NCBI GenBank assembly: GCA_944389065.1
Contig: CALXKZ010000023.1
Coordinates: forward strand, 1-64,000
Source: an uncultured Spirochaetaceae bacterium
GTDB taxonomy: Bacteria; Spirochaetota; Spirochaetia; Sphaerochaetales; Sphaerochaetaceae
Reading direction: 5' to 3'
Length of the DNA: 64,000 bases
Shown: piece by piece, positions 1,714 to 32,810 of the stretch
How positions within the stretch are numbered: position 1 is the stretch's first letter
How the letters are laid out: every line of letters begins with the position of its first letter
The notes under the pieces: model-generated
What the model saw: the letters and a program-made list of their open reading frames with translations, nothing else
What the model was told of the DNA's origin: nothing
The model's database searches: none
Translations under genes and position numbers: made by a program

Positions 1714-1747
1714 CACATCAGAATCTTAAAAAAGAGGGTTGAGAGAT

Positions 1748-16412: not shown

Positions 16413-18149
16413 ATGCGTATTGCAGGTTTTATAACACTTCTTCTGGCTTCATTGATTACTGCATGTGCACCAGTAGCTTATTCCGATCTCTCTGATCCCG
16501 GAATATCTGTGCCAGAAGCAGGTGCTGAGATCATAAGTGCTTCATATAATGAAAACAATGTGATAGCCGTCTTCCCAGCTATAACAGGAGCAAGGAGCTA
16601 CGGCTATTCCTTTGATAATTCGAATATACTTGCAGGAAATACTGAGTTTTCCGATGGTATTTATACTATGTCTTTCCCGAAGCCTGCTGGCTTTTCTGAG
16701 AGTGATTCATTCTCTCTGTATGCATCACCAAGCCGCAATCCTTCCGATGGAAATCCTGGATGGGTCTGGTTTGCTGATGTCACAGGAGCTGGCTATGAGG
16801 CTGTTGATATCAACAGTGTAGCGCCTGAGGGATATGTCTCGGAAAGGACTGAGAGCAGCGTTACGATCGCATTTGTCAATCAGCCGGGTGAGATGGAGTA
16901 CAAAGCTGTTGTTCCTGGAGTAGGAGAGGTGGAAGGAAGCGGAAGCGAGATTACCATCACAGGGCTTTCTTCTGATGCTTCCTACAGCATTGCAATCTGT
17001 CATAGATACAAAGGGCATGAGGAATATGGGGATAAATCCTCTATCATCACTGTTGGATCCTATGACTCTGATGAGGTTCTGAGGATATCAAGCAGCGGGA
17101 AGGCGATTACTGTTTCTCAGCTTCCTGCTGTAGCTGGTGAGCTTTCGATCGTCAATGATGCAACCGGTGCAGTCCTTGTTTCTGCAACGACTGAGGGAGA
17201 GAACAGCCATACATTCACCGAAGAGGATATAACTCTTTTCGATACAGGTATTTTCCATGCTGTATTCAGAAGCAATGGTTCTGAAGCAGTCAGTGGAAAC
17301 ATTCCGTATACGGCAGAGCTTACTGTTGAATCATATGATGTGATGAGACAGCATTATGTGGCTTATATTCCGGCTCCTGAAGGTATTAATACAAGTGTTT
17401 TCAGCATTGCTCTTGCAGGTGTTCCAACTGCAGAATGCAACGTCGAGTGGATTGATGGGAATGCAGTTGTGACAGTATCAGGGCTATCAAGCCTTACTTC
17501 CTACACTGGTGCTATTACTTCAGGTGGTGAGACATATCCTCTCTCATTCACTACAGAAGGTTTTACCGGAAGATACAGATTCCTTGATGGAACAGCTGAA
17601 GGAAACTATGAAGTCGGCGAGTTCGTCGTTGATGTTGAGAAAGCTGCAGAAGGAAGCTCTACACGCTATTACTTCTATGCATCCTCCGAGGATCCTCATT
17701 CTACCGCGGATCAGGGCAGACTGAGGATATCGCCGCTGATTGACTCCAGCCTCGAGGAAGTACCTGATGGGGATATCGACTACAATGGCAGCGAGTACTA
17801 TCAGAAGGCTTACAGGTGGAACAATACGAAATGGAACGCTGCTGACGGGGCCGAAGTCAAGTCGTGGCTTATAAAGAGCTATTCTCCCTCAGGGGATTCA
17901 TATGTCTCAATCGTATCATCCACAGCTTCTATGTTCGGTCTCACGACAAGTGCAGAGACAACAACGAGGTTCATGCTTGAGGAAGATGAGGATGGAAATG
18001 CCTCTCTGATATTCTTCAACAAGATCACAGGAGGAGCTTTCGCATCTGTCGGAAATAATATGATAAGAAAGAATCCTAATCCAGATACAGCAAGATTCGG
18101 AGAGGATGCTCCATTCACATTCGAGCTTGGACTGGAGGAGACTGTATGA
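16413..18149 (+). CDS. Lipoprotein of a lipoprotein/outer-membrane-barrel pair (copy 1)
   Basis: 578 residues with a signal peptide ending LITAC. The mature protein starts APVAYSDLS and has FN3-like beta domains (GARSYGYSF; TESSVTIAF; ITGLSSDASYSIAI), then a conserved C-terminal domain with KAYRWNNTKWN and FFNKITGG, then RKNPNPDTARF. The product of 29756 has the same order of landmarks. The stop overlaps the start of the beta-barrel gene by four bases (ATGA), so the two are made together. They may form a surface complex in which the lipoprotein caps or uses the barrel. The biochemical role is unknown. Confidence 0.8.
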   Translation: MRIAGFITLLLASLITACAPVAYSDLSDPGISVPEAGAEIISASYNENNVIAVFPAITGARSYGYSFDNSNILAGNTEFSDGIYTMSFPKPAGFSESDSFSLYASPSRNPSDGNPGWVWFADVTGAGYEAVDINSVAPEGYVSERTESSVTIAFVNQPGEMEYKAVVPGVGEVEGSGSEITITGLSSDASYSIAICHRYKGHEEYGDKSSIITVGSYDSDEVLRISSSGKAITVSQLPAVAGELSIVNDATGAVLVSATTEGENSHTFTEEDITLFDTGIFHAVFRSNGSEAVSGNIPYTAELTVESYDVMRQHYVAYIPAPEGINTSVFSIALAGVPTAECNVEWIDGNAVVTVSGLSSLTSYTGAITSGGETYPLSFTTEGFTGRYRFLDGTAEGNYEVGEFVVDVEKAAEGSSTRYYFYASSEDPHSTADQGRLRISPLIDSSLEEVPDGDIDYNGSEYYQKAYRWNNTKWNAADGAEVKSWLIKSYSPSGDSYVSIVSSTASMFGLTTSAETTTRFMLEEDEDGNASLIFFNKITGGAFASVGNNMIRKNPNPDTARFGEDAPFTFELGLEETV

Positions 18150-19423
18150 GAAAACTCTGTTTTGCCGCTGCTATTTCAATTCTGGTCTCTTCCATGCTCT
18201 ATGCTGCTGCAGTTCCTATCCAGAACTTCCGCGATCAGGAGCAGTGGGTTAAGCATCCTGGTCTTCTTCCGTTTACAGAGGAGTCGATTGCATTCGATGT
18301 ATCTGCTGATTTCGGCAACAGCATCGATGGATTCAGGTTCCTCTCCGATCCTGTAGGAACGCTGCAGAAGGCGGCTGACTATTTTGCAGATGCAGTATTC
18401 TCAATGAGCGATGAGGAGATTCTTGGAACATATGATGTGCTTTCCGATTCATTCTCATTCGATCCGGCTTTCCCGAAAAGAGGAAATACAGATTCTGAGA
18501 CTGTATACTTTGTCCGTGATTACTTCAGAAGCGGAGGCCGTTTCGACTCTCTTGATGATGCGAACAAAGCCAGGGGAGTGGCATCTTCTGTGCGTAACGG
18601 CCTTGCACCGTACCCTGATAAATTCCTGACAGGAGCAATGTACCTGGATTTCAGGATGAGCGGAGGAAAGGTTCATAACGGCTTCGGCTGGGACTGGAAT
18701 GTCGATTTCTTCTTCGATGGTGCCGAGTCTCTGCTTACACAGCCTATGAGGCCCGACCACAGGTATGGCAATGAGTTCGGTGTCACTTTCGGTGGCGATG
18801 TCGGATATGGCGCACTGCTTCTTGATGACAGGCTTTCGCTTGGTATCACTGCATCACCTCAGATGTACTTCCGTACAAGCTTTCTCAATGCGGATTACAT
18901 CGAAGGAAGGCTGAGCGGCAATCCATTCATGCTGCTTGCATCGAATGTCTTCTATCTTGGGATCGGACTTGATGTGAATGCAGGGCTTTTGTACAGGATC
19001 GATGACAATCTTTCCGTTGCATTCGATCTGAGGCATATCCCATCGCTTCAGACTGCATGGTATTTCACTGCTGATGATCTTCTGGGATCTTTCACATTCC
19101 ATCATGACGGTATTCTGTACTATGAGCCGTTTGATGCTGCTGCGACGCTTTTCATGGACTATGGGAAGATCCATGCATCTGTTGAGATAAGCAATATCAT
19201 ATCTGAAGCGATATGGGTAGCAGCCGTTCCTGGATGGAGAATGGATTACTGGAGCTTCGTGACACTTGGCTTCGGCTATGACCTTCGGGAAGATCTCACG
19301 CTTTATACAAAGTATGAGAGGAGAACGCTATCTCTGGGAGTAGAGTACAAGGGCTTTACTGCCGAGATCTCTTCAAGACTCGATATAGCTGCTTTTGGAA
19401 TCAAGGCAGGATATGCCTTTTGA
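18146..19423 (+). CDS. Outer-membrane beta-barrel protein of the pair (copy 1)
   Basis: 425 residues. Sec signal peptide (MRKLCFAAAISILVSSMLYA), a ~130-residue soluble N-terminal part with SDPVGTLQKAADYF, then alternating amphipathic strands (NGFGWDWNVDFFFDG, GGDVGYGALLLDDRLSLGI, LTLYTKYERRTLSLGVEY) and a final GYAF, the terminal aromatic typical of BAM-inserted barrels. It is homologous to the product of 31536. Translationally coupled to the lipoprotein upstream. I cannot name the family; transport or adhesion are both possible. Confidence 0.8.
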   Translation: MRKLCFAAAISILVSSMLYAAAVPIQNFRDQEQWVKHPGLLPFTEESIAFDVSADFGNSIDGFRFLSDPVGTLQKAADYFADAVFSMSDEEILGTYDVLSDSFSFDPAFPKRGNTDSETVYFVRDYFRSGGRFDSLDDANKARGVASSVRNGLAPYPDKFLTGAMYLDFRMSGGKVHNGFGWDWNVDFFFDGAESLLTQPMRPDHRYGNEFGVTFGGDVGYGALLLDDRLSLGITASPQMYFRTSFLNADYIEGRLSGNPFMLLASNVFYLGIGLDVNAGLLYRIDDNLSVAFDLRHIPSLQTAWYFTADDLLGSFTFHHDGILYYEPFDAAATLFMDYGKIHASVEISNIISEAIWVAAVPGWRMDYWSFVTLGFGYDLREDLTLYTKYERRTLSLGVEYKGFTAEISSRLDIAAFGIKAGYAF

Positions 19424-19446
19424 ATAAAACAATCTCAATCCTCTCC

Positions 19447-19472
19447 GATGCCCCTGCAAGCGCAGGGGTATC
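19447..19472. terminator. Hairpin between convergent genes
   Basis: CCCCTGC (19451-19457), loop AAGC, GCAGGGG (19462-19468), extended by GATG/TATC. It lies between the barrel gene and the convergent protease gene and could act both ways; there is no U tract on either side. Confidence 0.6.
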
Positions 19473-19497
19473 ATTATGAGAAGAGGGGGCTGGGTGA

Positions 19498-20928
19498 TCA
19501 GATTCCAGTACGTATCCAGTCAAAAGCCCTTGCAAGACGTGAATCCGTACCGCTTTCAAACTCAGTGATGCTGAAAGGTATTGATGATTCATCAGGATCG
19601 ATGCCAATACCTTCTCTTATCACACCGTCATATGCTCTTGATTCATAGATCGGCGTATTGCTGAAAGCAATGTAATCATCAATGATATAAGGGCTGGAAA
19701 GGTGGAAGCTTCCTGATCCGTATTTATCGGAGGGATTATCCTCATCCAGAGGTCCATGTGCTCCGAATGTCCTGTCTCCGATCACATATGTATTTCCTCC
19801 GTGGTTATCCCTGAAAGCCTTGAAGAAGTATGTCGTCATCTCAGAGCATGATGCTGAAAGGCCATTCACAAGGACTGCGACAGGCTTATCGAAGTTCTTC
19901 TCAGCGCTGCCATTGGCCTTTATATCAAGATCACGCCATGATGAGTATGACTGCCGGTTGTCAGTCTTCTTTCCCCTGAGCTGTACGATATTCACATCCT
20001 CTTTGATGAATGAAGGCCAGAGAAGGCTGAGGTCTGTGATAAGACCGCCGCCATTTCCCCTTATATCGATTATGGCACCGGTGCAGTCCTCTGAATCTGA
20101 GATGTAATCAAGGATGCTTTCAAGGAGTGCAACGACCTGGAGCCCTACAGGATTGCCTTCATTTGTTCCGCTGAATACGAACGGGGAGATCATGAACCCG
20201 GAGAACAGAATATATGCTATCCCGTCCTCTGTTATGCCTGCAAAGAGGGCGAAATCCCCGACGTCCATGGTTTCATTTCCGGCCTCGATAACATAGCTTT
20301 CAGGAGTGATGAAGTAACCTGCCTTTGCAAAGTACTCGCCGATGCGTCCTTCTTCTGCAGTCTTTTCAGAGAACTCCCTGTACAATGGCTCGTCCTGTAC
20401 ATCTGTATCGATGCCGAAGATATTCTTCATTATGCTTATGGCTTTCTCATTCTTCGCAGCGGAGGTGCTGAATTCCTCATAGTCGGAGGATGTGGCATTC
20501 AGCACAGCATCCTTTGCCTCCTCAGGAGTAAGCCCGAGTCTTGTAAGAAGCCTTGTCTTTCCTGGCTGATACCTGACGCTCTCCCTTCCTGGAAGATTGA
20601 GGTCCATATAGTAATGGCCATCGCTGAGAGAGGCTGTGATCTCATAGAAATCATCGATGACAGCACTCTGTGTCTCTTCGTCCGACATCTCTATATTCCC
20701 ATAGGAGACGAAGCGAGGATGGTATTCGCTGTATACTTCATCCCATTCTGTACCAGGTGAGTCGAGATCCCAGAATACATAGTATCTGTTCATCTTATCC
20801 CACCAGGCATCGAAGAGCTCTGCGTATGTCGTGATCTCTTCCGCAGGCGGGGGTGAGGTTATGTCCTGTCTGCACGAAAAGAGGCTGAGAAGAAGGAGGG
20901 CCGTAAGCAGTATCGTTATCTTTTTCAT
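19498..20928 (-). CDS. S41 family peptidase, lipoprotein
   Basis: 476 residues with a lipoprotein signal ending LSLFSC. The C-terminal half shows the S41 (C-terminal processing/tricorn type) catalytic core: GAIIDIRGNGGG, then VAVLVNGLSASCSEM with the nucleophile Ser, then GDRTFGAHGPL. The N-terminal half has the family's YYVFWDLDSPGTEWD and SLSDGHYYMDL. No PDZ domain is evident. It is periplasmic or surface-facing by its lipid anchor, cleaving unknown envelope proteins. It overlaps the OMP gene upstream by four bases (ATGA), so the barrel may be a partner. Confidence 0.85.
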   Translation of the reverse strand: MKKITILLTALLLLSLFSCRQDITSPPPAEEITTYAELFDAWWDKMNRYYVFWDLDSPGTEWDEVYSEYHPRFVSYGNIEMSDEETQSAVIDDFYEITASLSDGHYYMDLNLPGRESVRYQPGKTRLLTRLGLTPEEAKDAVLNATSSDYEEFSTSAAKNEKAISIMKNIFGIDTDVQDEPLYREFSEKTAEEGRIGEYFAKAGYFITPESYVIEAGNETMDVGDFALFAGITEDGIAYILFSGFMISPFVFSGTNEGNPVGLQVVALLESILDYISDSEDCTGAIIDIRGNGGGLITDLSLLWPSFIKEDVNIVQLRGKKTDNRQSYSSWRDLDIKANGSAEKNFDKPVAVLVNGLSASCSEMTTYFFKAFRDNHGGNTYVIGDRTFGAHGPLDEDNPSDKYGSGSFHLSSPYIIDDYIAFSNTPIYESRAYDGVIREGIGIDPDESSIPFSITEFESGTDSRLARAFDWIRTGI

Positions 20929-21620
20929 CTCTGGTAATCTCCTTTTCCGATCAGGATGTTGTAGCCGATCGATACAGAGAATGCATCGATGTATCTTGTG
21001 ACCATATTCTCCTGGTAGTTCCTGTCGAGGGACGTGAATGAATACTTGTAGCGTGCTGCGATGTACATCTCGCTCCTCTCTCCGAATCTGACGCCTCCTC
21101 CGAGCTCTGCAAGGAATCCCGCATCGAACATATTGTCAGTGAGTGGATTGAGCTCGACAGTTCCGTTTATATAAGAATTGCTTCCATCGAGCGCGACAGC
21201 ATTGCCATCCTCTGTCGATCTGAATCTCCATCCAAGATATATACCGGCTCCGGCAAAGCCGCGGACGAATCCGTTATCAAGGGAGAAACGGAGAGAGGCA
21301 GGAACATCGAAGAAATGCTCCGTATTCCTGAGACTGAATACGAGCTGGTTCTCATATTCGCGCTCAGAGCCATAGGCCCGTCCTTCATAGAACAGACCGG
21401 AAGCAAGACTCAGCCAGGATGTGAAATGGTATTCGGCAGGAATACCTATAGAGAATGCATGTCCCGGAGAGTATTCAGTGATCCTGGATCCGCCTTTCTG
21501 GTCGTATAGCCCGAGCGTGTATCCAGCCTCTATTCCGATGCTCAGCGTTCCTGCTCTGGATGCATATAGAGATGCAGGAACAATAATGGCAATCAGAAGG
21601 ATTATCATGATCTTTTTCAT
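20925..21620 (-). CDS. Small outer-membrane beta-barrel protein
   Basis: 231 residues from ATG 21620, after GAGGTGG; a longer frame to 21644 lacks support. Signal peptide MKKIMIILLIAIIVPASLYA, then eight-strand-type alternating pattern (GIEAGYTLGLYD, SLASGLFYEGRAYG, GFAGAGIYLGWRF, MYIAARYKYSF, SVSIGYNILIG), like OMP_b-brl porin-family proteins. First gene of a two-gene operon with the S41 protease. Confidence 0.75.
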   Translation of the reverse strand: MKKIMIILLIAIIVPASLYASRAGTLSIGIEAGYTLGLYDQKGGSRITEYSPGHAFSIGIPAEYHFTSWLSLASGLFYEGRAYGSEREYENQLVFSLRNTEHFFDVPASLRFSLDNGFVRGFAGAGIYLGWRFRSTEDGNAVALDGSNSYINGTVELNPLTDNMFDAGFLAELGGGVRFGERSEMYIAARYKYSFTSLDRNYQENMVTRYIDAFSVSIGYNILIGKGDYQR

Positions 21621-21896
21621 ATCCACCTCAGAAGGATTATACACTTATAATTCATGATTCATGAACATAAATCCTGCGGTTCTGCACTATTTTGCTATAA
21701 TCATGTGCAGATGGATTATTCCCTGCTTTATTGAAGCTTCTTCGCTATACGTGTGAAAATATGTGCAATATCATGGAAAAGGCAGATGGAAAGATTGCTT
21801 TTGAAGAAAACCCATGCAATACTTTCCGCAACTGAGGTTGGTTCGTTCATCATCGCTTCTCCTCTTATACCTCAGTGCTTAAAAGGAGGAATCTTA

Positions 21897-22790
21897 GTGA
21901 TCAATTCAATCTCAATCAAAGGCTACAGCCTGTCAGGGCTGATGGCCTGGAATCCCTCTGTGTATACGCTGACAAGAATGCTTTCCCGTATCGGACTGGA
22001 TATCATTACATTCCTGAATCAGATGGATGAGGGAAACGGACTGTATGCTGCCAATCCATCATCGGAGGTCATATTCTATTCAAATGAGGAGATATTCATC
22101 TTCCTGAGCGATGTCTACAGAACGCAATCGATGGACACAGCGCGGATGGAAGAGGTCATGATGCGCTCAAATGTCTATTCCTCAAGACTTTCGACGATTC
22201 TTTCATTCTCAGCTCCTGCTGGGCTTTCGCTGAAGATGGTATTCGAGGGAGTAGGATCAAGAAGGAAGGAGAGTGCGGAGGAAAAGCGCTCTGAACGCCC
22301 GGATCTGCCTGATGAGCCGATAAGCATCTCAGCTCTCTCCTCGCTTCATCTTATCGCCCGTCTGGAAGGTCTTCAGGATATGCCGGATGCATACTACTCA
22401 TGTCTGTCGAAATATGGATGGAATCCTACATTCGCATCATTGGCCCATCTGCTCTTTCCTCTCTCTATCGATATCTCGGATTTCCTTATTGCCGCATCCC
22501 GGGATGATCTTGTGATAGCCCCTTCTGAGAAGTTCTCCGGAACGGAGTACGGCAGGGACCTGATGGATACCATAAGTTTCCTTCACAGAGAGCAGGGCAG
22601 ATCCTACGTAAGGACCGGGAAGGATATCGACAGGGACAGGACTGCTGTGATGAGGGCCATGACAAGAAGGGAAGGGGAGCTGATCACAGTGGGTCATGTA
22701 ATGAATTACATCAGGCCTCTCAACATAACTCTTCCGGAGCTCCTTGCCATCCATGACAGGCGATCTGCAGAGCTTCTTGGAAAAGAATAA
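21897..22790 (+). CDS. Protein with degenerate tandem XRE-like domains
   Basis: 297 residues from GTG 21897, preceded by AAAGGAGG seven bases earlier; the frame continues upstream to 21753 but that part is non-coding. Three segments echo the last helices of XRE/Cro HTH domains: NPSVYTLTRMLSRIGLDIITF near residue 20, NPTFASLAHLLFPLSIDISDF near 180, and LITVGHVMNYIRPLNITLPEL near 270. The third is preceded by a fuller helix set (LMDTISFLHREQGRSY and onward). The recognition helices look degenerate, so it may use the fold for protein contacts. No membrane segments. Flanked by a protease operon and small envelope genes. Function unknown. Confidence 0.6.
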   Translation: MINSISIKGYSLSGLMAWNPSVYTLTRMLSRIGLDIITFLNQMDEGNGLYAANPSSEVIFYSNEEIFIFLSDVYRTQSMDTARMEEVMMRSNVYSSRLSTILSFSAPAGLSLKMVFEGVGSRRKESAEEKRSERPDLPDEPISISALSSLHLIARLEGLQDMPDAYYSCLSKYGWNPTFASLAHLLFPLSIDISDFLIAASRDDLVIAPSEKFSGTEYGRDLMDTISFLHREQGRSYVRTGKDIDRDRTAVMRAMTRREGELITVGHVMNYIRPLNITLPELLAIHDRRSAELLGKE

Positions 22791-22812
22791 TCCTCCCCGG
22801 GGATGGGGAGGA
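22791..22812 (+). terminator. Terminator after the XRE-like gene
   Basis: TCCTCCCC (22791-22798), loop GGGGAT, GGGGAGGA (22805-22812): a perfect 8-bp stem starting right after the stop codon; poor U tract. The following gap to 23028 shows nothing clear. Confidence 0.6.
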
Positions 22813-23028
22813 AATCCTCAGCATTGAGAATAGAGAGGATTGAGAAGGTGCATTCCTTCATCGATTATTCTATCAGAAACCATCTTCTGCTTCTGTGTTT
22901 TTCATAGCATGGCAATGCTTTTTCATCGGATACAGGATGTATATTCTATGAACTCTGCGTAGATTATCTGTACCGCTGTAACCTTTCTGTCCTCATTTTG
23001 TTGGCAAAGTGTTCTGGAGCGTTCAAGC

Positions 23029-23301
23029 ATGAAAATCGGAAGAGCTGCCTCTGTGTTTGCAATTTCTGTCCTTCTTATCGGCTGTGAGTCCTTTGTGCCT
23101 CACTCTGCAGAGGATTTGAATCCATCGGATTATATAGTCCTTGGTGCGATTTCCTATGACGATGTCAGAGGGGATGGCTATGAGGGGATGCTGAAAGCAG
23201 CAATGGAGGTGTATCCAGGGACTACCGATGTCATTGATATTGTCCCTGGGTCGGATATGGCAGTGCTTTCAGGTATCGCAATACAGAAAATACAGGCATA
23301 G
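23029..23301 (+). CDS. Small lipoprotein
   Basis: 90 residues. Signal peptide MKIGRAASVFAISVLLIGC with lipobox LIGC. The mature part (DYIVLGAISYDDVRGDGYEG then LKAAMEVYPGTTDVIDI) has the pattern of small conserved spirochaetal lipoproteins with LG-x-(V/I)-S-x, GY-x-x-LL-x-A and YPG-x-DDVV motifs, similar to TRL-like proteins. No catalytic residues are known for them. No strong ribosome-binding site is visible. It probably belongs with the two small envelope genes that follow. Confidence 0.7.
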   Translation: MKIGRAASVFAISVLLIGCESFVPHSAEDLNPSDYIVLGAISYDDVRGDGYEGMLKAAMEVYPGTTDVIDIVPGSDMAVLSGIAIQKIQA

Positions 23302-23341
23302 ATTCTGTTCTTTTTCATCTCTCTGATTTATATTCTCGTAT

Positions 23342-23887
23342 ATGAGAAAGATACTGATCCTTGCTGTTCTGCTTCTGTTTTTGATCCTTCCTCTGTCAGC
23401 CGATGCGGGTTGGACTCCTTCTCTCAGCATCGGAATTGGTGTCAATACGACAGATAAAGAATACGAGGGAGTATCCTCGGGCTTCCTTCCTGTCCTTGCT
23501 CTCTCTGCAGAACTTGATCTTATATCATTCAGGTCAGGAGATGAGTACGTATCATTTCCTATTGCTTATCAGTATGTGCTTGATAACAGCAGCCAGAATG
23601 GGGAAGGAGCGAGGCAGGATATATTCCTTTCCATAAGATATGGCCATAGATTCGGCAGTATGTTCCGCCTTTATGCATCTGGGAATATCGGTTATTCGAT
23701 ATCAATGGATGACTGGGGGAAAACATGGCTTTTCGGTGGAACAATCACTCCCGCTTTCGCTGTGAATGAGAACTTCATGGTCCAGCTTCCGATCTCTGCA
23801 CATACAGGAAGCGGCACTGTCGTTATCGATGCGCGGATAATGCTCACCCTTGCATTCGATGTTTCTGGAGAGATACGGCAGAAGTAG
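23342..23887 (+). CDS. Small outer-membrane beta-barrel protein
   Basis: 181 residues. Sec signal MRKILILAVLLLFLILPLSA, then strands alternating in hydrophobicity (TPSLSIGIGVN, FRLYASGNIGYSI, WLFGGTITPAFAV, VIDARIMLTLAFDV). There is no Shine-Dalgarno sequence. TATATT (23329-23334) stands seven bases before the ATG, so the message may be leaderless, although no good -35 box is visible. Function unknown. Confidence 0.7.
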   Translation: MRKILILAVLLLFLILPLSADAGWTPSLSIGIGVNTTDKEYEGVSSGFLPVLALSAELDLISFRSGDEYVSFPIAYQYVLDNSSQNGEGARQDIFLSIRYGHRFGSMFRLYASGNIGYSISMDDWGKTWLFGGTITPAFAVNENFMVQLPISAHTGSGTVVIDARIMLTLAFDVSGEIRQK

Positions 23888-23985
23888 GGTGTTTTCTGCA
23901 TTTTGTGTGTATTGCGGATTTTCATAGATGTCTTATCTGGAATGCGTGCTAGAATCAGAATTGCATTAACCAAAAAGGAGAGTCT

Positions 23986-24447
23986 ATGAAGAAATCAATG
24001 CTTTTTGTATTCGTGCTGCTTGTCATTCTTATGACAGCATGTCAGACCATGTCTCTTCCAGCTCCAACACAGGAAGAGGCCGATGCCTATGAGCGTGCAC
24101 TTCAGGAGATCCTGACATCTGCTGGCTTCGGTGGGATAATCGATGCGGCAAAGGGAGATGGAGGCGATGGAGAGTACAGCGAAGGAGACAGGATCGGAGT
24201 CTATACCGTGACAAAGCAGAGCCATGTAAGGATCGATGTTGACCTGTCTGGCATTCTTAAGGGAGAGCAGTCGGTATCCTATGATGTCGATGTATCCTAT
24301 AAGCCGCTTATCGGTGATGAGAAGTCCATCGTCTATGTTGCAGAGACAAGAGCTGGAAGCGATGGCAATGTCACAGTCATCAGCAGGGCAGAGCTCAATG
24401 GAAAGGCATTCGATCCAGATGCGATGCAGCGCATGATGTCAGATTGA
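23986..24447 (+). CDS. Small lipoprotein
   Basis: 153 residues from ATG 23986, with AAAAAGGAGAG just upstream. The signal ends ILMTAC. The mature protein has a Gly/Asp-rich turn (GDGGDGEYSEGDRIG) and a beta-rich C-terminus (SVSYDVDVSYKPLIGDEKS). No known motif. The gene is last in a run of small envelope genes and is followed by a hairpin. Confidence 0.75.
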   Translation: MKKSMLFVFVLLVILMTACQTMSLPAPTQEEADAYERALQEILTSAGFGGIIDAAKGDGGDGEYSEGDRIGVYTVTKQSHVRIDVDLSGILKGEQSVSYDVDVSYKPLIGDEKSIVYVAETRAGSDGNVTVISRAELNGKAFDPDAMQRMMSD

Positions 24448-24474
24448 ACTCTCATCCATTCTGACCATGCAGAG

Positions 24475-24498
24475 GCTCCCGGAGATGTTCTTGGGAGC
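24475..24498. terminator. Hairpin between convergent genes
   Basis: GCTCCC (24475-24480) pairs with GGGAGC (24493-24498) across a 12-base loop, between the stops of a plus-strand lipoprotein and the minus-strand RloB gene. Confidence 0.5.
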
Positions 24499-25374
24499 TT
24501 ATTCTATTTTCAGAAGCTTCTCAAATAGGTGAGGAAGATTTGATCCGAGTTCATCATTTGCAATCAATGATGAGATATCTGTTTCAAACTCTTTAGCCTG
24601 ATCCACTGCATCCTTTAACGAATTCAGATAGTATTTCCTGAATGCAGTCTCTGAAATATGCTTTGAATGCTTTGCTCTGCTCCATACCTCACGGCTGGTA
24701 TATGTATGTGTCCCTGAAACTCTTTTGTTGGATTTCAGTTCTTCTATCTGATCCGCATATTCTTTGTTCACATTGCAAAGATGCAGAAGTAGCCAGAACT
24801 CGAAACAGGGGGATGTGATATAGCAATTATATCCGTGTTTGCTGCAGTCTGCCTGAACATTCAGCAATTGTTCTATGCTATGCGTTGCACTGTCTTTGTC
24901 TATGACAATGCAGAAATGGTCTGAATCCCGATTGCATTCAGAAAGAAAACGAAAGTAGGCAAAATCAATTCCTTTGGCTTTCATTTTGCCCTCAAAGTCC
25001 TCTATTTCATATTCTGGAAGCGAATCGGGACAGATTATATAATTCTCAATGAACTCAATATCGTACCCTGCTGGAATGAGTTCTTTGAGCTTTGAAGCAT
25101 CAAGACCATTTTGGTGAATATCAACCATTTCGCATAGTAAATCGAATACTGATTCAGGAGAGCTTTTGGTATCATTATTCGCACGCTTTATGACTTCTAC
25201 ACGTATAAGGTTGTCAATACCAAGCTCTGCCCTGAATTTATCGACATTCCGGAAGTAATCATATTCAGTCTCATTTCCTTCGACAGCGATGAAGATAATG
25301 CTTTTAGGCTGTATGTTCAGGTTATCATCAATTCTTGTGAAGAGATCAGTTGACCTGATTCTGTACTGGCTCAT
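24499..25374 (-). CDS. RloB-like protein (AbiLii-like), TOPRIM-type partner of the ATPase
   Basis: 291 residues. RloB-family features: IFIAVEGNETEYDYFRN near residue 30, FCIVIDKDSATH near 155, and YITSPCFEFWLLLHL near 185. The conserved Glu and the Asp pair in VIDKD fit a metal-binding TOPRIM-like nuclease site. The start overlaps the stop of the ATPase gene by four bases. RloB next to an AAA_15-type ATPase is a known pairing, described as RloAB beside restriction systems and as AbiL in phage abortive infection. Anti-phage function here is inferred from that pairing. Confidence 0.8.
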   Translation of the reverse strand: MSQYRIRSTDLFTRIDDNLNIQPKSIIFIAVEGNETEYDYFRNVDKFRAELGIDNLIRVEVIKRANNDTKSSPESVFDLLCEMVDIHQNGLDASKLKELIPAGYDIEFIENYIICPDSLPEYEIEDFEGKMKAKGIDFAYFRFLSECNRDSDHFCIVIDKDSATHSIEQLLNVQADCSKHGYNCYITSPCFEFWLLLHLCNVNKEYADQIEELKSNKRVSGTHTYTSREVWSRAKHSKHISETAFRKYYLNSLKDAVDQAKEFETDISSLIANDELGSNLPHLFEKLLKIE

Positions 25375-26705
25375 TTGCTATCCTCAATGTCATCTTCAGA
25401 CTGAGTGAAACACGGTATTGAACCGAATCTCCCAAGAAGATAGTCCTTTATGATCTTCTTATCATATCGTATCTGGAATTGATTAAGTGAATACATATTT
25501 GAAGACCCGGATTGATTGTCGCGGTATACAAACCAGATTTCATCCTGCCGCATAATATCGAAATTCATCAGATTGACATCATGCAGAGTGGCAATAAGCT
25601 GGATATCCAGGTCTTTTGTATTCTGGAAAAACAGCTCTATGTATCTGATAATAAGGTTTGTATGAAAACTTCTATCTATCTCGTCTATCAGGATCACCCC
25701 GGATCCTTCTATCCCGACAACAAATGGCAATAAATCAAAAAGCCTCTTTGTTCCATCGGATTCATCTTCAAATGAGAAAAGCTCATCGGGATTGCCATGA
25801 TTCATTAATTGCGATGATGCAATGATCTCTCCATTTTCCTTTCTGAATGAATAATGATCATTCATTATGACAGCACTGATGCTTTTATCTGTTTTCTTCA
25901 GCAGATCTGCCATGTCAGAAGAGACTTTATCCCGCAGCCTTTCCGGCATATACGATAATATTGATTCAAGCGGTCCTTCATTGAAGGTTATCGATTTGAT
26001 ACCGGTATCAAGGGAGGAGAGGACCTGATAGAATTCCTCGGATGATAATTCCTTATGGCCTTCAGCATTGATATGCGTATGCGGGAAGATTATCACCAAT
26101 TCCTGGAACCACTTCCATACAGCTTTGAAATCAGAGAACTTTGAAGAGTTTATCAATTCTTTTTCCGCAATATCCATAAGGAATGTTTTTTTTCTTGAAA
26201 TATCCTCTTCATAGATTCTGAAACGTGTAGCTATCTCTTTATCAAAGATGAGATCTGATGAAATCGATGTCTTATCATCTTTTATTTCTCTGTCAAAAAT
26301 GCACATCTCATCATTGTTTTCAATTTTATAAAGCCATTCTGATATTATTTCACAATCAATATAGGAGAAAGCAAAACCATAGGAGTAGAAATTGCCTCCA
26401 GCATAGATTTCAAACTGGAATATGCCAGGCTTATTCCTGTATTCAGGATCAATACGGAAATATTTTCTTTCAATACCATATTTATTGATTCCTTTCAGGA
26501 TTATGTTCTTTGCTGTATCGATTGATTTTATGAAATTTGATTTCCCTGAGGCATTTGCTCCGAATATGAGACTGCTTTTAAGAATTCTTCTTCCTTCAGC
26601 ATTTCTTAAATGATCAGAATGTCTTGTATGTTTTCCTGCAATCATGGAAAAGGTCTGACGCTCTTTGAAGGACATGAAATTCTCGACTGAAAATCTGATC
26701 AGCAT
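25371..26705 (-). CDS. AAA_15/OLD-like ATPase, RloA (AbiLi-like)
   Basis: 444 residues from ATG 26705, six bases after GGAG; TTG 26717 is rejected. Starts MLIRFSVENFMSFKERQTFS, the hallmark of RecF/OLD-like AAA_15 ATPases. Walker A GANASGKSN near residue 50, signature-like SFEDESDGTKRLFDLLPF near 310, Walker B ILIDEIDRSFH near 335, and the H-loop region LIATLHDVNLM. It would bind DNA or sense infection and license the RloB nuclease. First gene of the operon. A perfect 9-bp inverted repeat lies just upstream of the start. Confidence 0.85.
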   Translation of the reverse strand: MLIRFSVENFMSFKERQTFSMIAGKHTRHSDHLRNAEGRRILKSSLIFGANASGKSNFIKSIDTAKNIILKGINKYGIERKYFRIDPEYRNKPGIFQFEIYAGGNFYSYGFAFSYIDCEIISEWLYKIENNDEMCIFDREIKDDKTSISSDLIFDKEIATRFRIYEEDISRKKTFLMDIAEKELINSSKFSDFKAVWKWFQELVIIFPHTHINAEGHKELSSEEFYQVLSSLDTGIKSITFNEGPLESILSYMPERLRDKVSSDMADLLKKTDKSISAVIMNDHYSFRKENGEIIASSQLMNHGNPDELFSFEDESDGTKRLFDLLPFVVGIEGSGVILIDEIDRSFHTNLIIRYIELFFQNTKDLDIQLIATLHDVNLMNFDIMRQDEIWFVYRDNQSGSSNMYSLNQFQIRYDKKIIKDYLLGRFGSIPCFTQSEDDIEDSK

Positions 26706-26721
26706 ATTGTTCTCCAATTAG

Positions 26722-26744
26722 AATATGTGATTTTTTCACATATT
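26722..26744 (-). promoter_or_regulatory. Inverted repeat upstream of the RloAB operon
   Basis: AATATGTGA (26722-26730), five T, TCACATATT (26736-26744): a perfect 9-bp palindrome 17 bases before the ATPase start. The position suits an operator or a hairpin in the leader. The surrounding 26706-26880 is very AT-rich. Confidence 0.6.
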
Positions 26745-26992
26745 ATGCAAGCTTTATTTTTATTTTTTGTTTATATTTTCGCTAAATATTTATTTTATAG
26801 TGATTTTCTTTTTTCGAGAAAAAAAGCATAAGAGATTTTTTGAATAACATTACACTTTTTCAGAGTAGAATGCAGGACTAAATCAGAAACCATATCATTT
26901 GGTTTAAACTGCATGTGAAAAGATCACCAATAGGTGAGCAAATCCAGATTATTGCCAGAATCCTGGCTGATAATGCTAAAGGCAATCCCATT

Positions 26993-29524
26993 TCAGAGGA
27001 TTGCAGTGATTGATTCAGAGTCCTCGACTGTATAGCCGACACCAGCTTTGAGGTTTCCATCATAGCCGTTGTCCTTTTCGAATGTAACGGTGTATGATCC
27101 ACTTCTTTCCATAACATTGACACCATTGTATTTTATATACGCAAGGCCCTGATTATCTGGCAGAGTGATAGTGAGCGTGTCATCGCCGTCTCCTTTGCCG
27201 ATGATCTCAAGCGGATCTGTTCCAAGGTAACCTGCCCAGCCATCGTTATTGCCCTTTGCCTGAAGTGAGAGCTTTCCTTTTATAGATGCTTCTCCTACTG
27301 AGCAGGTGAATGAATAATCAGATGGGAATTCAATATAGCCATTTGTCTGACTGGCGCTTCCTGCATATGTTCCATCGCTGCTGTGGACAGCAATCCCTGG
27401 CATCTTGTCATACAGATATCCTTCATACCAGGAATCTGTTCCCCACCAGTCACCTCCGAACTCCTTATCAGCAGCGGCTATCGGGGCAGCGAGTATGCTG
27501 TTTACTGTATTCACAAGAGATTCCGCATCAGTGAATCCTGTTTTGTAGACATCGAATTCGATTGTCTCAGAAATTCCTGTATGGTATTCAGGCGATACCG
27601 TGATAACAACAGTTCCTGTTCCGCCTGTGAGCGTCATAAGCCCTGTCTTTTCATCTATTATTGCTATATCAGGGTTGCTTGACTGGTAGACAGCATTCTT
27701 CACAGTTGATGTCTCTGGCAGGGTAGTGGCTGAAAGCTGCACCTGGCGCTCTTCTCCTGTAGAGAGAGCTGTTGAGACTCTTGTATTCACAGGAGTGATT
27801 GCAACTCCCGTGCTTGGAGTCTTCACCACCATGAAATCAACATCATTGCTCTTTACAGGTCCTGATGCGGTATGGACTGTCAGGCAGAGCTTGTTGATGC
27901 CTTCCTGAAGCAGTGGACTGTCCTCGATGACGATGAATGTCCCGCCATTCTCAGCAGTCTCGGCTTTTGCATCAGTGCCGTTTATGCTCCAGCTGTATCC
28001 TGCTGCATCATCAATTGCGCTGATCGATACGCAGAGGTCTGCTGTTTCCGGGAATATGACCATCTTCTCTGGTTCAGACGGGGTTATATCGAAGCCTTCT
28101 GAAAGCTCTGGCTTCGATATCGTAACAATATTCTCTGATATAGCCATCTGTGGAGTCTGGCTGCTGAGGCTGCCTTCGACTTCTCCGCGCATTCCCATTA
28201 CTTTATATGCATATACCTTATAGGAATAGAGCGAGGAATCGGAATATACCGTGGTATCACCTACATTCGTAAGGAACTTGAACTCCCTGCCGTTCTCGCT
28301 TCTGTATATGGCATAGCTGTCAGCACCTTTTACCTTGCTCCATGAGAGCGTGAAGGCATTGCCATCCCTTCTGGCAGATACAGAAAGAGGTGCTTCGAGA
28401 ATTATTTCTGCAGCTATTGGCTCTGGATACTCATACCATGAAGATGAGAATCCCGTCTTATGATGCGCCTGGAAGCTTACTGTGTACTCATCTCCCATCT
28501 TCATGCCGCTGATCGTGAATGAGGATTCCTCATTTCCGCTGATATCCACTTTCGCTGTCTTCTCGCTGACAGTGGGGGAAGAGTACCTGACTGTGACGTA
28601 ATCGAAGATGACCTCATCATCAACCATTGGATTCTTCCAGCTTATTGTCACAGACGATCCTTCATCAGGTCCGCTTGCATATGAGACATCATAGATATTA
28701 TCCATGCTCATTATGTCTTCTTTCCCAAGAGTGAGGACTTCTGAGCTTTCGGATCCAGGGATGATCGAAGTGAGATCAGGGAATATCTGGGTAGTGGTGG
28801 TGAGAAGAGAGGGATTGAGCATCGTTCCGTCCGATGCAGTCAGTGCGTACCTGATGCTCAGACCTGTGGATACAGGGAGCTTGCCGACTTCGAACTGATA
28901 GGTTGTAGCGCTTTTTCCCGTTGCTGCGCTCCGTCCGGCCTCAACCCATGACGAAGAGGCGGCATTATAGTAATAGATGATGAATACGAATCCTCCATTG
29001 TCCATGATGCTCCTTACTGCATCATCATCTGCAGCATCCTTCCAGCTGAATGTAATGGAGGCAGATCCTGTGTATCTTCCTGTCTCAATGGATGCAAGGC
29101 TGACAGCGACTGAATTCGATCCATCCTTCGAGACAGTAAGGTAATCATCACCCCTGCCATTGAAGAGCTTCGTCCTTCCATCAGTGCCGAATGCGTCGAT
29201 TATGACTGCATATGTGCCAAGCTCGACATTCTTGATGACGAACTCGCTTGCAGAGCCCGGGAAGCTTTCATTTCTCTTTCCGGACTGATCCGGGCTTATG
29301 ACCCATCTGCCGTTCCTGCTCTCGATAGCTCCGAGAGAGACAGCGTATGTTGCTACATCGGGGTAGGCGACTTCTCTTGTACTGTTGATTGAGGCTGTGG
29401 CAGCAGATGGACTTCTGAGCATTACAGTCGCATCGGCTCTTGGGATTCCCGGGGTTGTATTTGTACATGAAAGGATCATAAGAACAATCAGTACGATTGC
29501 AGAAAGTGATCCGTATCTTCTCAT
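26993..29524 (-). CDS. Large lipoprotein with FN3 and BIG2-like domains
   Basis: 843 residues. The lipoprotein signal ends VLMILSC. An N-terminal domain (NVELGTYAVIIDAFG), two or more FN3-like modules (SVTISWKNPMVDDEV; SVSARRDGNAFTLSWSKVKG then SYAIYRSENG), a BIG2-like segment (VQLSATTLPETS, then QSSNPDIAIIDEKTGLMTL) and a Trp-rich C-terminal module with DKEFGGDWWGTDSWYEG. It is homologous to the product of 35042 in domain order. Extracellular or surface binding is likely; no enzyme motif. It is divergent from the 29756 lipoprotein and shares the upstream region with it. Ribosome-binding site CAGGAG. Confidence 0.8.
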   Translation of the reverse strand: MRRYGSLSAIVLIVLMILSCTNTTPGIPRADATVMLRSPSAATASINSTREVAYPDVATYAVSLGAIESRNGRWVISPDQSGKRNESFPGSASEFVIKNVELGTYAVIIDAFGTDGRTKLFNGRGDDYLTVSKDGSNSVAVSLASIETGRYTGSASITFSWKDAADDDAVRSIMDNGGFVFIIYYYNAASSSWVEAGRSAATGKSATTYQFEVGKLPVSTGLSIRYALTASDGTMLNPSLLTTTTQIFPDLTSIIPGSESSEVLTLGKEDIMSMDNIYDVSYASGPDEGSSVTISWKNPMVDDEVIFDYVTVRYSSPTVSEKTAKVDISGNEESSFTISGMKMGDEYTVSFQAHHKTGFSSSWYEYPEPIAAEIILEAPLSVSARRDGNAFTLSWSKVKGADSYAIYRSENGREFKFLTNVGDTTVYSDSSLYSYKVYAYKVMGMRGEVEGSLSSQTPQMAISENIVTISKPELSEGFDITPSEPEKMVIFPETADLCVSISAIDDAAGYSWSINGTDAKAETAENGGTFIVIEDSPLLQEGINKLCLTVHTASGPVKSNDVDFMVVKTPSTGVAITPVNTRVSTALSTGEERQVQLSATTLPETSTVKNAVYQSSNPDIAIIDEKTGLMTLTGGTGTVVITVSPEYHTGISETIEFDVYKTGFTDAESLVNTVNSILAAPIAAADKEFGGDWWGTDSWYEGYLYDKMPGIAVHSSDGTYAGSASQTNGYIEFPSDYSFTCSVGEASIKGKLSLQAKGNNDGWAGYLGTDPLEIIGKGDGDDTLTITLPDNQGLAYIKYNGVNVMERSGSYTVTFEKDNGYDGNLKAGVGYTVEDSESITAIL

Positions 29525-29553
29525 AAACTGTTTACTCCTGGCAGCATTCTGCC

Positions 29554-29725
29554 TTAACGAACAAAAGAATATAGATTTGTCGTTTAAGTATCAATATGCA
29601 ATATGCATACAATCTGCTGGATTTTCTGACAGCTTTCATGCCTTTGTCAATATCCAGAGGGTTAACGAACAACGGCAATTGTTTTTGTTAGATAACTTGT
29701 AATAGTTTCCACTTTATGATTTACT
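29554..29725. promoter_or_regulatory. Divergent lipoprotein control region with three TGTTCG/TGTTAG boxes
   Basis: TTTTGTTAGATAAC (29683-29696) runs into TTGTAA (29697-29702) and, after 17 bases, TTTACT (29720-29725), a promoter for gene 29756. Two boxes face the other way for gene 26993-29524: GTTAACGAACAA (29661-29672) and TTAACGAACAAAAG (29554-29567). The latter is followed by a GGCAG-AATG-CTGCC hairpin before the ribosome-binding site. Confidence 0.55.
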
Positions 29726-29755
29726 ATGGCGGGCCCCAAAGTTCCTTAAGGCCTT

Positions 29756-31534
29756 ATGATTATGAGAAAATATTGGTTTTATATAATAAATGCACTGCTT
29801 CTGTTTATGATTCTCGCAGGATGCTCTCCGATGGTCTATGAGGATCTTTCAAATGATGACAACTCCATTTCCATTGATAGGAATGAGTATGAGATAGAGG
29901 CATCTGAGAGCGGTGAGAGCATTTCGATCACATTCGATAGCGTTCCGGGTGCACGTTCATATGGCTATGGCCTTTCAAGCAAGGATGTGACGAAATTCGC
30001 AAAGAGCGAGCTCTCATTCTCATCAGGCAGCTATACTGCGAATATAAGCCGGGATATTTTCTCTTCCTCTCCATCATCCTCCCGTGCCTCTGGCGGGAAG
30101 TTCTCAATCGTGCTTTTCGCATCCACCATGCAGGAGCCTGCTGCATCGGACTGGATAATCCTTGATGCAGTCGATGTATCCCTCAGTCTCGGGATCGCCC
30201 CAAGCCTGACTGTATCGGAAAGAGACGAGACCAGCATAACGCTTGATGCCAGATCGGAGGCGATCAGCGGGAATATGTCATATATGGTGGAATATGGAGA
30301 AGGGAAAAGCGCGGTATTCGATTCCGATGAGCTTCCATTCACGATCGAGGATGCAGGAACGGAGGCATTCGATATAACTGTCTACCATAAGTATATCGGA
30401 TCAGGATCGTACTGCGATCTGACGCAGACAGTCTCTGTTCCCGAGTTCGATCCGAGGCAGGCTGATATAGAGATCAGCATCCAGGAAGATGGATCCATTG
30501 CTCTATCGGATATCCCTGCAGAAGCAGATAACCTTTCGAATATGGGTGTTGTCTCAATGGGAGCGGATAATAAGCTTTCACTTATTCATTCACAGATGAA
30601 CAATGTCTCAGGAACCGCAACACTTGATAAAAGCATTTTCGGTACAGGCTTCTATGTTGGTTCAGTCCGAGTTGTGTTCTACAACAACGATCCCAATGAC
30701 GATGATGCAATCATAAGCTCATCAATCGACTATGAAGCTGAGCTGGATGCCGTGAAGACAGATGAGAAGATAGGGCGGCAGAGCTACAGCGTTTCCATAC
30801 CTGTTTCCGATAAGCTCGGCCTTACTGATGCTGATATCACTGTATCAGGAATCCCTGGGGCAGAGATATCCAGAAGCTTTGAGGATGGGGTCCTGAAGAT
30901 CGGTATCGGAGCAGGGGAGCTTCTGAGCCGTACCTCATACTCTCTTGATATCTCGTTCAGCATCCCATCCTATGGGAAGATAACGAAAGCCCTGGATTTC
31001 ACAACCAATGGCTTTGAGGGAAGCTACGAATGGAAAGTCGATGCATCCAATCAGTTTGCGGTGATTGTTGAAACTGCTCCTGAGGGAAGCAAGTACAACT
31101 ACTATGTCTATACTTCCCCCCTTGATATCAAATACACAGGAGAGAAGCTCTGCCTTTCTCCGCTTTTCGAGAATGACGGGGATGCCGCGAATCTCTCATA
31201 TGGCGATGAGAAGCTCAAGGCATACCGCTGGAACAATGAGAAGTGGAACACAAGCAGCATGAAGCCCGATGCTCTTTCAAAGATCACTACGACGATAAAG
31301 AACAAGGACAGCGTATCTGCCGATGTAGTCTCTAAGGCACTTGGAATTTCCGTTACGACCAGGACAGAGCTCTTCTTCAAGGAGAAGGCAGATGGATCAT
31401 GCTATATGGTTTTCCATAATGAGATCACGAATGGACCGGGAGGAAGCTATCTGAGGGAGAATCCATCCCCCAATCCTGATAACTTTGAGGAAAGCCCGTA
31501 CTACTATTCGCTTCTACGCATAGGGGACAACTGA
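29756..31534 (+). CDS. Lipoprotein of a lipoprotein/outer-membrane-barrel pair (copy 2)
   Basis: 592 residues from ATG 29756 (ATG 29762 is equally possible). The signal ends MILAGC. Paralogue of the 16413 product: SPMVYEDLSN, GARSYGYGL, WIILDAVDV, SERDETSITL, KAYRWNNEKWN, and FHNEITNG then RENPSPNPDNF in the same order. FN3-like beta domains with a conserved C-terminal domain. A C6 run (31116-31121) lies in frame in TSPLDI and could be a slippage point. The stop is one base before the GTG start of the barrel gene, so the two are coupled. Role unknown. Confidence 0.8.
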   Translation: MIMRKYWFYIINALLLFMILAGCSPMVYEDLSNDDNSISIDRNEYEIEASESGESISITFDSVPGARSYGYGLSSKDVTKFAKSELSFSSGSYTANISRDIFSSSPSSSRASGGKFSIVLFASTMQEPAASDWIILDAVDVSLSLGIAPSLTVSERDETSITLDARSEAISGNMSYMVEYGEGKSAVFDSDELPFTIEDAGTEAFDITVYHKYIGSGSYCDLTQTVSVPEFDPRQADIEISIQEDGSIALSDIPAEADNLSNMGVVSMGADNKLSLIHSQMNNVSGTATLDKSIFGTGFYVGSVRVVFYNNDPNDDDAIISSSIDYEAELDAVKTDEKIGRQSYSVSIPVSDKLGLTDADITVSGIPGAEISRSFEDGVLKIGIGAGELLSRTSYSLDISFSIPSYGKITKALDFTTNGFEGSYEWKVDASNQFAVIVETAPEGSKYNYYVYTSPLDIKYTGEKLCLSPLFENDGDAANLSYGDEKLKAYRWNNEKWNTSSMKPDALSKITTTIKNKDSVSADVVSKALGISVTTRTELFFKEKADGSCYMVFHNEITNGPGGSYLRENPSPNPDNFEESPYYYSLLRIGDN

Positions 31535-31535
31535 G

Positions 31536-32810
31536 GTGCGGAAACTGCTTGCTGCCATCCTGCTTCTTGCTGCAGCTCAATCCATGGCTTCTGCATCATG
31601 GATCCCGATGAGCGATTATGATGAGCAGACGGTTTTCTCAAGCCCTGCGCTCCTTGCTTCTATGGATGACAGGCCAATCCCTTTCGGCATTGAGCTCAAG
31701 GGCTATGCTGATATGGATATGATAGACTTCATCTCCGATCCTGCATCTGTGCTGCAGGATGCTGCGGAGCATCTAAGGACATTCCTCCTGGATCAGGATG
31801 ACCAGTATCTTTCTGACAACTATGATGCCATACGGGATATCTTCCAGCCAGATACGAGATTCCCGGACTTTTCCGATGATGTCACAGAGATCTCGTATCA
31901 GATCAGGGAGTATCTTAAGTCACGATTCACCATGCTCAATCCCGGCAATAAGGCTCTGGCTGCTTCCAGGGCGATGAACTCCTCTCTCAATATCTATCCG
32001 GAGGATACTTCATCGCTTATCAGAGGGGATCTCGATTTCTCGATGAGAATGTACGGAGGTGCTGTAAGGAACGGCTTTGCATGGAACATCGGTATGGGCA
32101 TCGTCTATGATGGAGCTTCCTCAATCATGAGCTCGGTCTCATTCAAGGACCATAAGTATGGAAGCGACCTGTATTTCACGCTTGGCGGAGATCTAGGTTA
32201 TGGATCATATATAGGGGATAGTTTCGCAATAGGTGTATCATTCTCGCCAGACTTTGTATTCAGCACGACAATAAGCAATAAGGATCTTGTTTCCTCAAGG
32301 ATCGATGGAAGCATTCTTGGCCTCTTTGCAAACAATGCATTCGATTTCGGCCTCGCTCTTGATCTCAATCTCGGTTTCATGATCGATGCAGGCAATGCGA
32401 AGATCCTGATTGATTTCAGGAACATTCCATCGATGTCCATGAACTGGTACTTCAATGCCACTGATGTCCTCATGGGATTCAGCCTCATAGCAGATGACAA
32501 TATATACTTCGTGCCTCCAGATGCATCGGTCGGCTTCATATATGATAATGGACCATGGCATCTGAAGGGGGAGATAAGCAATATCCTTGATCAGTTCATA
32601 TGGTCCTCAATGATCCATACCTATAAGTTCGATATCCTGTCAGTTCCAAAGTTCTCTGTTTTCTATGATATACTCGACAGCTTTTCACTCGGGCTCGGCT
32701 ATGAGTACAGGTCTGTGCTCCTGACAATGCTATGGAGCGGATTCAAGGCAGAGTTCAGAGTCTCTCTTGATAAAGCAGGATTCGGCGTAGCTATAGGGTA
32801 CGAATTCTGA
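31536..32810 (+). CDS. Outer-membrane beta-barrel protein of the pair (copy 2)
   Basis: 424 residues from GTG 31536. Signal peptide VRKLLAAILLLAAAQSMASA. Same plan as the 18146 product: SDPASVLQDAAEHL in the soluble N-terminal part, GGAVRNGFAWNIGMGIVYDG, GGDLGYGSYIGDSF, DFRNIPSMSMNWYFNATDV, and a terminal GYEF. The terminal Phe and alternating strands predict BAM-dependent insertion. The pair has been duplicated and has diverged while keeping gene order and coupling, which suggests the two products work together. Confidence 0.8.
   Translation: MRKLLAAILLLAAAQSMASASWIPMSDYDEQTVFSSPALLASMDDRPIPFGIELKGYADMDMIDFISDPASVLQDAAEHLRTFLLDQDDQYLSDNYDAIRDIFQPDTRFPDFSDDVTEISYQIREYLKSRFTMLNPGNKALAASRAMNSSLNIYPEDTSSLIRGDLDFSMRMYGGAVRNGFAWNIGMGIVYDGASSIMSSVSFKDHKYGSDLYFTLGGDLGYGSYIGDSFAIGVSFSPDFVFSTTISNKDLVSSRIDGSILGLFANNAFDFGLALDLNLGFMIDAGNAKILIDFRNIPSMSMNWYFNATDVLMGFSLIADDNIYFVPPDASVGFIYDNGPWHLKGEISNILDQFIWSSMIHTYKFDILSVPKFSVFYDILDSFSLGLGYEYRSVLLTMLWSGFKAEFRVSLDKAGFGVAIGYEF

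Follow-up and report, generated by a model that had tools for sequence, protein, structure and literature searches.

The closest described counterpart of the system considered here is BamG-BamH of the Bacteroidota, in which a barrel of the FadL family holds a lipoprotein at the surface, with the conserved lipidated tail of that protein wedged alongside it; in B. thetaiotaomicron, bamG2-bamH2 forms a putative operon (PMC12578637, PMC12611786). Few integral proteins of the spirochaete outer membrane are known; FadL-like barrels are among them and have been studied as single proteins. The FadL orthologues of T. pallidum (TP0548, TP0856, TP0858, TP0859 and TP0865) have a FadL fold with an NPA-type hatch and are multi-copy, and the structural survey treats all five without lipoprotein partners (PMC8407342). 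Spirochaete FadL-like barrels are syphilis vaccine candidates (PMC11761103, PMC12808356). Here we describe two gene pairs, I and II, in a 64,000-nucleotide stretch of DNA (the window) from an uncultured Spirochaetaceae bacterium; each pair codes for a lipoprotein with fibronectin type III (FN3)-like domains and for a predicted outer-membrane barrel. The preliminary description of this DNA knew of no described system with such features, a statement that does not hold: the pair is a FadL-superfamily barrel plus a lipoprotein, a combination already known. The pairing is not wholly unprecedented (BamG2-BamH2). As far as searched, it is new for spirochaetes: a targeted search of the openly accessible literature found no description of spirochaete lipoprotein-barrel pairing.

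The two pairs have the same gene order (Table 1). The genes of pair I overlap by 4 bases and those of pair II are separated by a 1-base gap. The lipoproteins share 34% identity (E 2.9e-41) and the barrels 33% (E 6.6e-68), so the paralogy of both partners is well past chance, and the paralogous arrangement proposed in the preliminary description is borne out by the open reading frames together with these E-values. Both lipoproteins carry a Sec signal and a lipobox (LITA-C and ILAG-C). The four landmarks listed in that description (KAYRWNN-x-KWN, SDP-x-x-x-LQ-x-A, GGD-x-GYG and terminal GY-x-F) are all present in both copies; across the family the SDP and GGD motifs are variable, and the only family-wide landmarks are the YxWNxxKWN signature of the lipoprotein and the C-terminal aromatic residue of the barrel.

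The window is contig C23 of a 2.3-Mb metagenome-assembled genome (MAG) of 92 contigs, which is 87% complete and 5.7% contaminated. Its relatives are MAGs labelled uncultured Spirochaetaceae or Spirochaetales, and isolate labels and small genomes suggest a gut habitat. Sequence searches of 60 relatives confined both genes to the same genus, and profile searches of 297 genomes of the class placed the barrel family in two genera of one family (18 genomes), with three weak barrel matches outside them. Relatives also hold the pair, with barrels 53–54% identical in G028 and G023, for example. At 41 of the 42 barrel loci collected, a long lipoprotein gene stands directly upstream on the same strand, most commonly with a 4-base overlap (loci at contig ends, namely G007:C24, G022:C104 and G029:C62, are uninformative on pairing). 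The sole unpaired barrel, of type II, lies at about position 5919 of G214:C29 (L141/L168). It was considered as a counter-example and rejected, because its 97% identity to locus L139 begins only ~80 bases upstream of the barrel, where unrelated DNA replaces the upstream sequence. A match that starts only there points to a chimeric contig or a recombined locus, and the locus is a poor counter-example.

The distances between barrels and between lipoproteins are strongly correlated (Mantel r 0.87, permuted maximum 0.16), and the maximum-likelihood trees of the two proteins have 26 of 38 splits in common (shuffled maximum 3). Pairs I and II belong to separate clades (10 and 8 rows) recovered in both trees, and members of the two clades occur together in at least five MAGs (G000, G028, G023, G009 and E04_bin178). 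The same clades in both trees, together with this co-occurrence, indicate that the pair was duplicated as a unit before these species split. As judged from the sequences, the pair is inherited and duplicated as one unit with both copies kept, in agreement with the retention proposed earlier. Such retention, combined with co-inheritance, means that the pair behaves as a two-part unit; the view of it as a two-part unit at the surface has good evolutionary support, though not biochemical support.

The barrel is missing from several genomes of the genus that are 92–96% complete (G011, G015, G020 and G021), and its copy number in the other genomes is 1–3. Being patchy in near-complete genomes and multi-copy, it fits an accessory, specificity-bearing role better than that of a general assembly factor. 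A third pair, on contig C20 of the same MAG, shares 92–94% identity with genome G025, and rpsB regions are present twice in the MAG, at 89% identity to each other (G000:C81 and G000:C17; L220, L221); C20 may therefore be a contaminant, and its pair was not counted as a third copy. The duplicate rpsB regions suggest that the assembly probably mixes at least two related species.

The lipoprotein is FN3-like, as had been proposed. Matches to fn3 were obtained for 7 of 24 members (best 2e-12), and the AlphaFold2 model (predicted local distance difference test score, pLDDT, 83) matches fibronectin strings in both Foldseek and VIA. As in FN3-containing lipoproteins in general, the FN3 domains lie behind a lipobox. 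No family was assigned to any of the four pair proteins by Pfam and NCBIfam. The lipid Cys is aligned in 40 of 41 lipoproteins, and the tail residues C18, P20, V21 and L26 (pair I numbering) are conserved well over the mean of the protein. The most conserved domain carries the YxWNxxKWN signature and is called here the KWN domain. It is also found as a secreted protein of ~270 aa, encoded next to the topA (topoisomerase I) gene, throughout the family, including the genome of the window, and in lipoproteins of 322–379 aa without a barrel after them in genomes G018, G006 and G033. The topA-adjacent FN3-KWN protein (L117:4596-5417 and its family equivalents) is conserved and secreted, and a small lipoprotein gene lies near it. 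As to whether either gene is often found alone, the barrel is never cleanly so; the KWN domain is, in the topA-linked protein and the short lipoproteins. Its presence outside the pairs suggests that the lipoprotein arose by joining an FN3 stalk to a KWN module of older origin, and it looks as though the barrel depends on the lipoprotein rather than the reverse.

The arrangement is not limited to this family. A lipoprotein gene stands directly upstream in 41 of 52 class-wide FadL/PorV-like barrel loci, against 6 of 107 control gene pairs from the same loci. The count was made by an automatic lipobox rule where the upstream sequence was long enough. Inspection by eye showed at least three of the misses to be lipoproteins as well, and two of the matches, one MtaB-like and one a TPR protein, to be false; the loci were taken from the best matches, so that the sample is not an unbiased census. 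FadL/PorV-like barrels occur in 66 of 92 sampled genera. Their commonest partner is a lipoprotein of ~210 aa beginning with C-[QE]-x-[VIM]-F-T-[YT]-S, and many loci are ordered lipoprotein A, barrel A, lipoprotein B, barrel B, behind an MtaB-like gene. The genome of the window itself has a class-type lipoprotein-barrel pair beside rpsB (L220, L221). Tandem lipoprotein-barrel clusters, often behind a gene for an MtaB-like methylthiotransferase, were observed at L178, L181, L185, L228, L232, L234 and L235, in several spirochaete families. These loci suggest a wider, apparently undescribed spirochaete habit of giving FadL-like barrels a dedicated lipoprotein partner.

This recurrence bears on one alternative, namely that there is no partnership: the genes would be envelope genes kept together by co-transcription only, and the lipoprotein would be periplasmic like its topA-linked secreted relative. 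We consider this very improbable. It would account for the KWN domain without a barrel across the family and for the short barrel-less KWN lipoproteins of three genomes, and the interface of the pair is itself inferred, but it sits poorly with the 41/42 pairing, the parallel paralogue clades and the conservation of the tail, as well as with the return of the lipoprotein-then-barrel order elsewhere in the class with an unrelated-looking lipoprotein.

The partner of the lipoprotein had been described as a barrel, and 14 strands are predicted for it. The AlphaFold2 model, built for the pair II protein from an alignment of 14 sequences (pLDDT 79.8; predicted template modelling score, pTM, 0.68), has short turns alternating with long loops. 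Residues 60–147, between strands 1 and 2, are helical; the even strand number and the C-terminal aromatic residue would place this loop on the extracellular side by barrel topology. The best Foldseek matches are TodX/FadL (E 4e-7) and PorV (1.2e-6), and the VIA Z-scores are 19.5 for CymD (267 residues, 3.9 Å), 17–18 for FadL/TodX, 16.7 for PorV and 15.8–16.6 for BamG. The predicted barrel thus belongs to the FadL/OMPP1/TodX superfamily at the level of fold. The FadL-type structural matches take in the segment before strand 1, and S36-P37-A38 is found at the offset of the NPA hatch motif of FadL, a position inferred from the starts of the aligned ranges. At that offset [SH]-P-[AG] is conserved in the barrel family, and F34, S36 and P37 are among its most conserved residues.

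At the sequence level the link runs through other spirochaetes. The barrel profile matches FadL-like barrels of other spirochaete families in hhalign (P 93, E 3e-7; P 97, E 4e-11). The class-wide spirochaete barrels in turn match PorV/PorQ (NF033709) with E up to 3e-11, which is under the cut-off of that model, and TraF_2 (PF13729) over its cut-off in 5 of 60 genomes. Neither model recognises the window barrels directly, so that PorV/PorQ and TraF_2 are their distant profile relatives via the class-wide barrels only. For PF03349 (FadL/OMPP1/TodX) the cut-off was not reached: 1 of 30 barrel members matched at E 0.015, and none in the genome of the window. PF13505 (OMP_b-brl) matched the barrel of one relative only (8.5e-7), and the barrel profile had no match among PDB sequences. 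An identity with OMP_TP0733 was rejected, as the match (E 0.0008) is far under the cut-off and covers part of the barrel.

Compared with BamG-BamH, the window pair likewise consists of a 14-strand FadL-family barrel and a dedicated lipoprotein, here on the evidence of gene pairing and predicted fold; the lipid tail is likewise conserved, and the genes are encoded together as in bamG2-bamH2. It differs in that the lipoprotein is of the FN3-KWN type, whereas BamH has a carbohydrate-binding-like fold, and in that BamG/H are core and essential, whereas the window pair is patchy and multi-copy and its barrel is missing from nearly all of the class. A lipoprotein profile search of PDB chains returned only FN3 proteins, with no sequence match to BamH, and the fold searches likewise gave FN3 proteins and no BamH; neither result is evidence that homology to BamH is absent. 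With FadL, TodX, TbuX and CymD (PF03349) the barrel shares 14 strands, and its SPA segment may correspond to the NPA motif of their hatch; unlike them it has a helical loop 1 of ~100 residues and a lipoprotein gene as constant partner. The T. pallidum FadLs can be set beside the window barrels by description. In contrast to SusC-SusD and other TonB-dependent pairs (22 strands and a plug), the barrel has 14 predicted strands and no TonB or plug match, and in contrast to SLAM, with its N-terminal TPR-like periplasmic domain, it has only ~25 residues between the signal peptide and strand 1.

The preliminary description had suggested lipoprotein display or uptake through the barrel. Display finds no direct support, and uptake through a FadL-type barrel is plausible by analogy. 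The reading that we tentatively favour, with doubt and confidence nearly balanced, is that the pair works as a surface module that captures and takes up a small compound, probably a hydrophobic or aromatic one. Each pair would encode one outer-membrane heterodimer, in which a 14-strand FadL-superfamily barrel bears a short hatch segment at its N terminus and, outside the cell, a large and helical loop 1. The lipoprotein would dock its lipidated N-terminal tail beside the barrel, as BamH does on BamG, and its four FN3-like domains would hold the C-terminal KWN head off the membrane. It would bind or concentrate the ligand, which the barrel would then pass on by the FadL route, and duplication may have given two pairs of different specificity.

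Several observations weigh against this reading. Most of the family has a KWN domain that is not accompanied by a barrel, which implies a barrel-independent job. OmpG, a generic 14-strand barrel, also reaches a VIA Z of 18, and the Foldseek TM-scores of the barrel are ~0.4; with OmpG tied on Z, the fold class of the barrel is clear and homology is unproved by structure alone. No family cut-off in Pfam or NCBIfam is reached by the barrel. In hhalign there is no direct match to the single E. coli FadL (P 1.5), so homology has to be argued via the spirochaete intermediates together with structure. Neither a ligand site nor a cognate periplasmic transporter was identified, and the topology of spirochaete lipoproteins cannot be read from sequence. 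Finally, shared species history adds to the congruence of the trees, though not to the parallel paralogue clades.

The neighbourhood raises the question of a scaffold. Genes for large FN3/Big_2 lipoproteins are found repeatedly no more than 7 kb away from the pair (in families of 8, 7 and 9 loci), and in G033 a barrel-less KWN lipoprotein adjoins such proteins. The lipoprotein family of 26993-29524 recurs beside pairs of the pair II clade in a cluster of 8 loci that includes the lipoprotein at 35042-38011, to which it is distantly similar (23% identity). A BamG-BamH-like or PorV-like dimer might assemble, anchor or deliver the large lipoproteins and carry out no small-molecule transport; PorV/PorQ are the best matches of the class-wide relatives, and BamG and PorV rank high among the structural matches of the barrel. 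We regard this as rather unlikely. The large lipoproteins differ in family between clades, are missing at some loci and are without KWN or A2 similarity, and BamG is near-universal and essential in Bacteroidota, whereas the window barrel is missing from the four near-complete genomes named above and otherwise varies in copy number. It is this patchy, multi-copy occurrence that favours an uptake module over a scaffold.

Adhesins of the cell surface and enzymes acting on glycans commonly contain FN3 strings, and the lipoprotein could accordingly be an adhesin or glycan-binding arm with the barrel as its membrane anchor or exporter; the large extracellular loops of the barrel model would suit this. 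It is nevertheless improbable, as no adhesin or carbohydrate-binding domain was significant (weak CBM_4_9 matches in 2 lipoprotein members), and a FadL hatch-like segment would be needless in a mere anchor.

Of most interest is whether spirochaete FadL-like barrels have a lipoprotein partner as a rule. It is possible, though somewhat less likely than not, that these barrels form obligate complexes with lipoproteins throughout the class as a counterpart of BamG-BamH, that the lipoproteins dock through a lipidated tail of conserved sequence (CSPxxYxxL in the window family, and C-[QE]-x-[VIM]-F-T-[YT]-S for most of the class), and that one lineage swapped its partner for the FN3-KWN type. Relatives of the syphilis FadL vaccine candidates may possibly be included. 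If true, this would be a previously unrecognised organising principle of the spirochaete outer membrane, and the surface, antigenicity, transport and assembly of FadL-like barrels would need re-examination together with the partner. The pair offers a simple genetic handle on lipoprotein-barrel association in spirochaetes.

Table 1. Features of the two gene pairs and of the neighbouring large lipoproteins (window coordinates).
Feature	Position	Strand	Basis
Pair I lipoprotein (578 aa), with signal peptide and lipobox ahead of four FN3-like domains and a KWN domain at the C terminus	16413..18149	+	
Pair I lipidated Cys18 with its conserved tail, CAPVAYSDLSDP (CSPxxYxxL in the family consensus)	16464..16499	+	conservation
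Four FN3/Ig-like beta-sandwich domains of pair I lipoprotein, residues 41–384	16533..17564	+	AlphaFold2, Foldseek, VIA
Pair I C-terminal KWN domain, residues 385–578; KAYRWNNTKWN at 17805-17837	17565..18146	+	
Pair I predicted FadL-fold outer-membrane barrel, 425 aa	18146..19423	+	structure model made on pair II paralogue
HPG, pair I form of the SPA motif (family consensus) preceding strand 1	18254..18262	+	alignment
Pair II lipoprotein, 592 aa, architecture as in pair I	29756..31534	+	
Pair II lipidated Cys23 and tail CSPMVYEDLSND	29822..29857	+	
Pair II lipoprotein KWN domain, residues 424–586	31025..31513	+	
Pair II predicted FadL-fold outer-membrane barrel, 424 aa, GTG start, 14 predicted strands	31536..32810	+	
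SPA motif S36-P37-A38 before strand 1, pair II barrel	31641..31649	+	structural alignments
Large loop between strands 1 and 2 of pair II barrel, residues 60–165; conserved helices 60–147	31713..32030	+	model, conservation
Large FN3/Big_2 lipoprotein, divergent from pair II	26993..29524	-	
Large FN3/Big_2 lipoprotein, downstream of pair II	35042..38011	+	

Further genes surround the pairs in the window. A candidate BamA upstream (1739-4306), with a weak POTRA match, was rejected, since the protein resembles a lipoprotein and has no barrel. Pair I is directly preceded, at 15361-16293, by a gene whose product has a TIR domain of the CAP12/Pycsar type (PF10137, slightly above the cut-off); this gene is not present in the L130 neighbourhood. 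An S41 peptidase lipoprotein and an OMP_b-brl_2 barrel (19498-21644) are convergent with pair I and conserved in L130. In the segment 24484-26991 an RloB-like gene (PF13707) at 24499-25374 is followed by one for an AAA_21 ATPase at 25371-26717, and the two are likely an RloAB-type defence pair; the segment is an insertion, since its flanks adjoin each other in the related locus L139. The segment 32811-34417, immediately after pair II, carries an AAA_14/DUF4143 ATPase gene (33026-34222), which is not in the syntenic locus L139, where position 7275 joins 7312.

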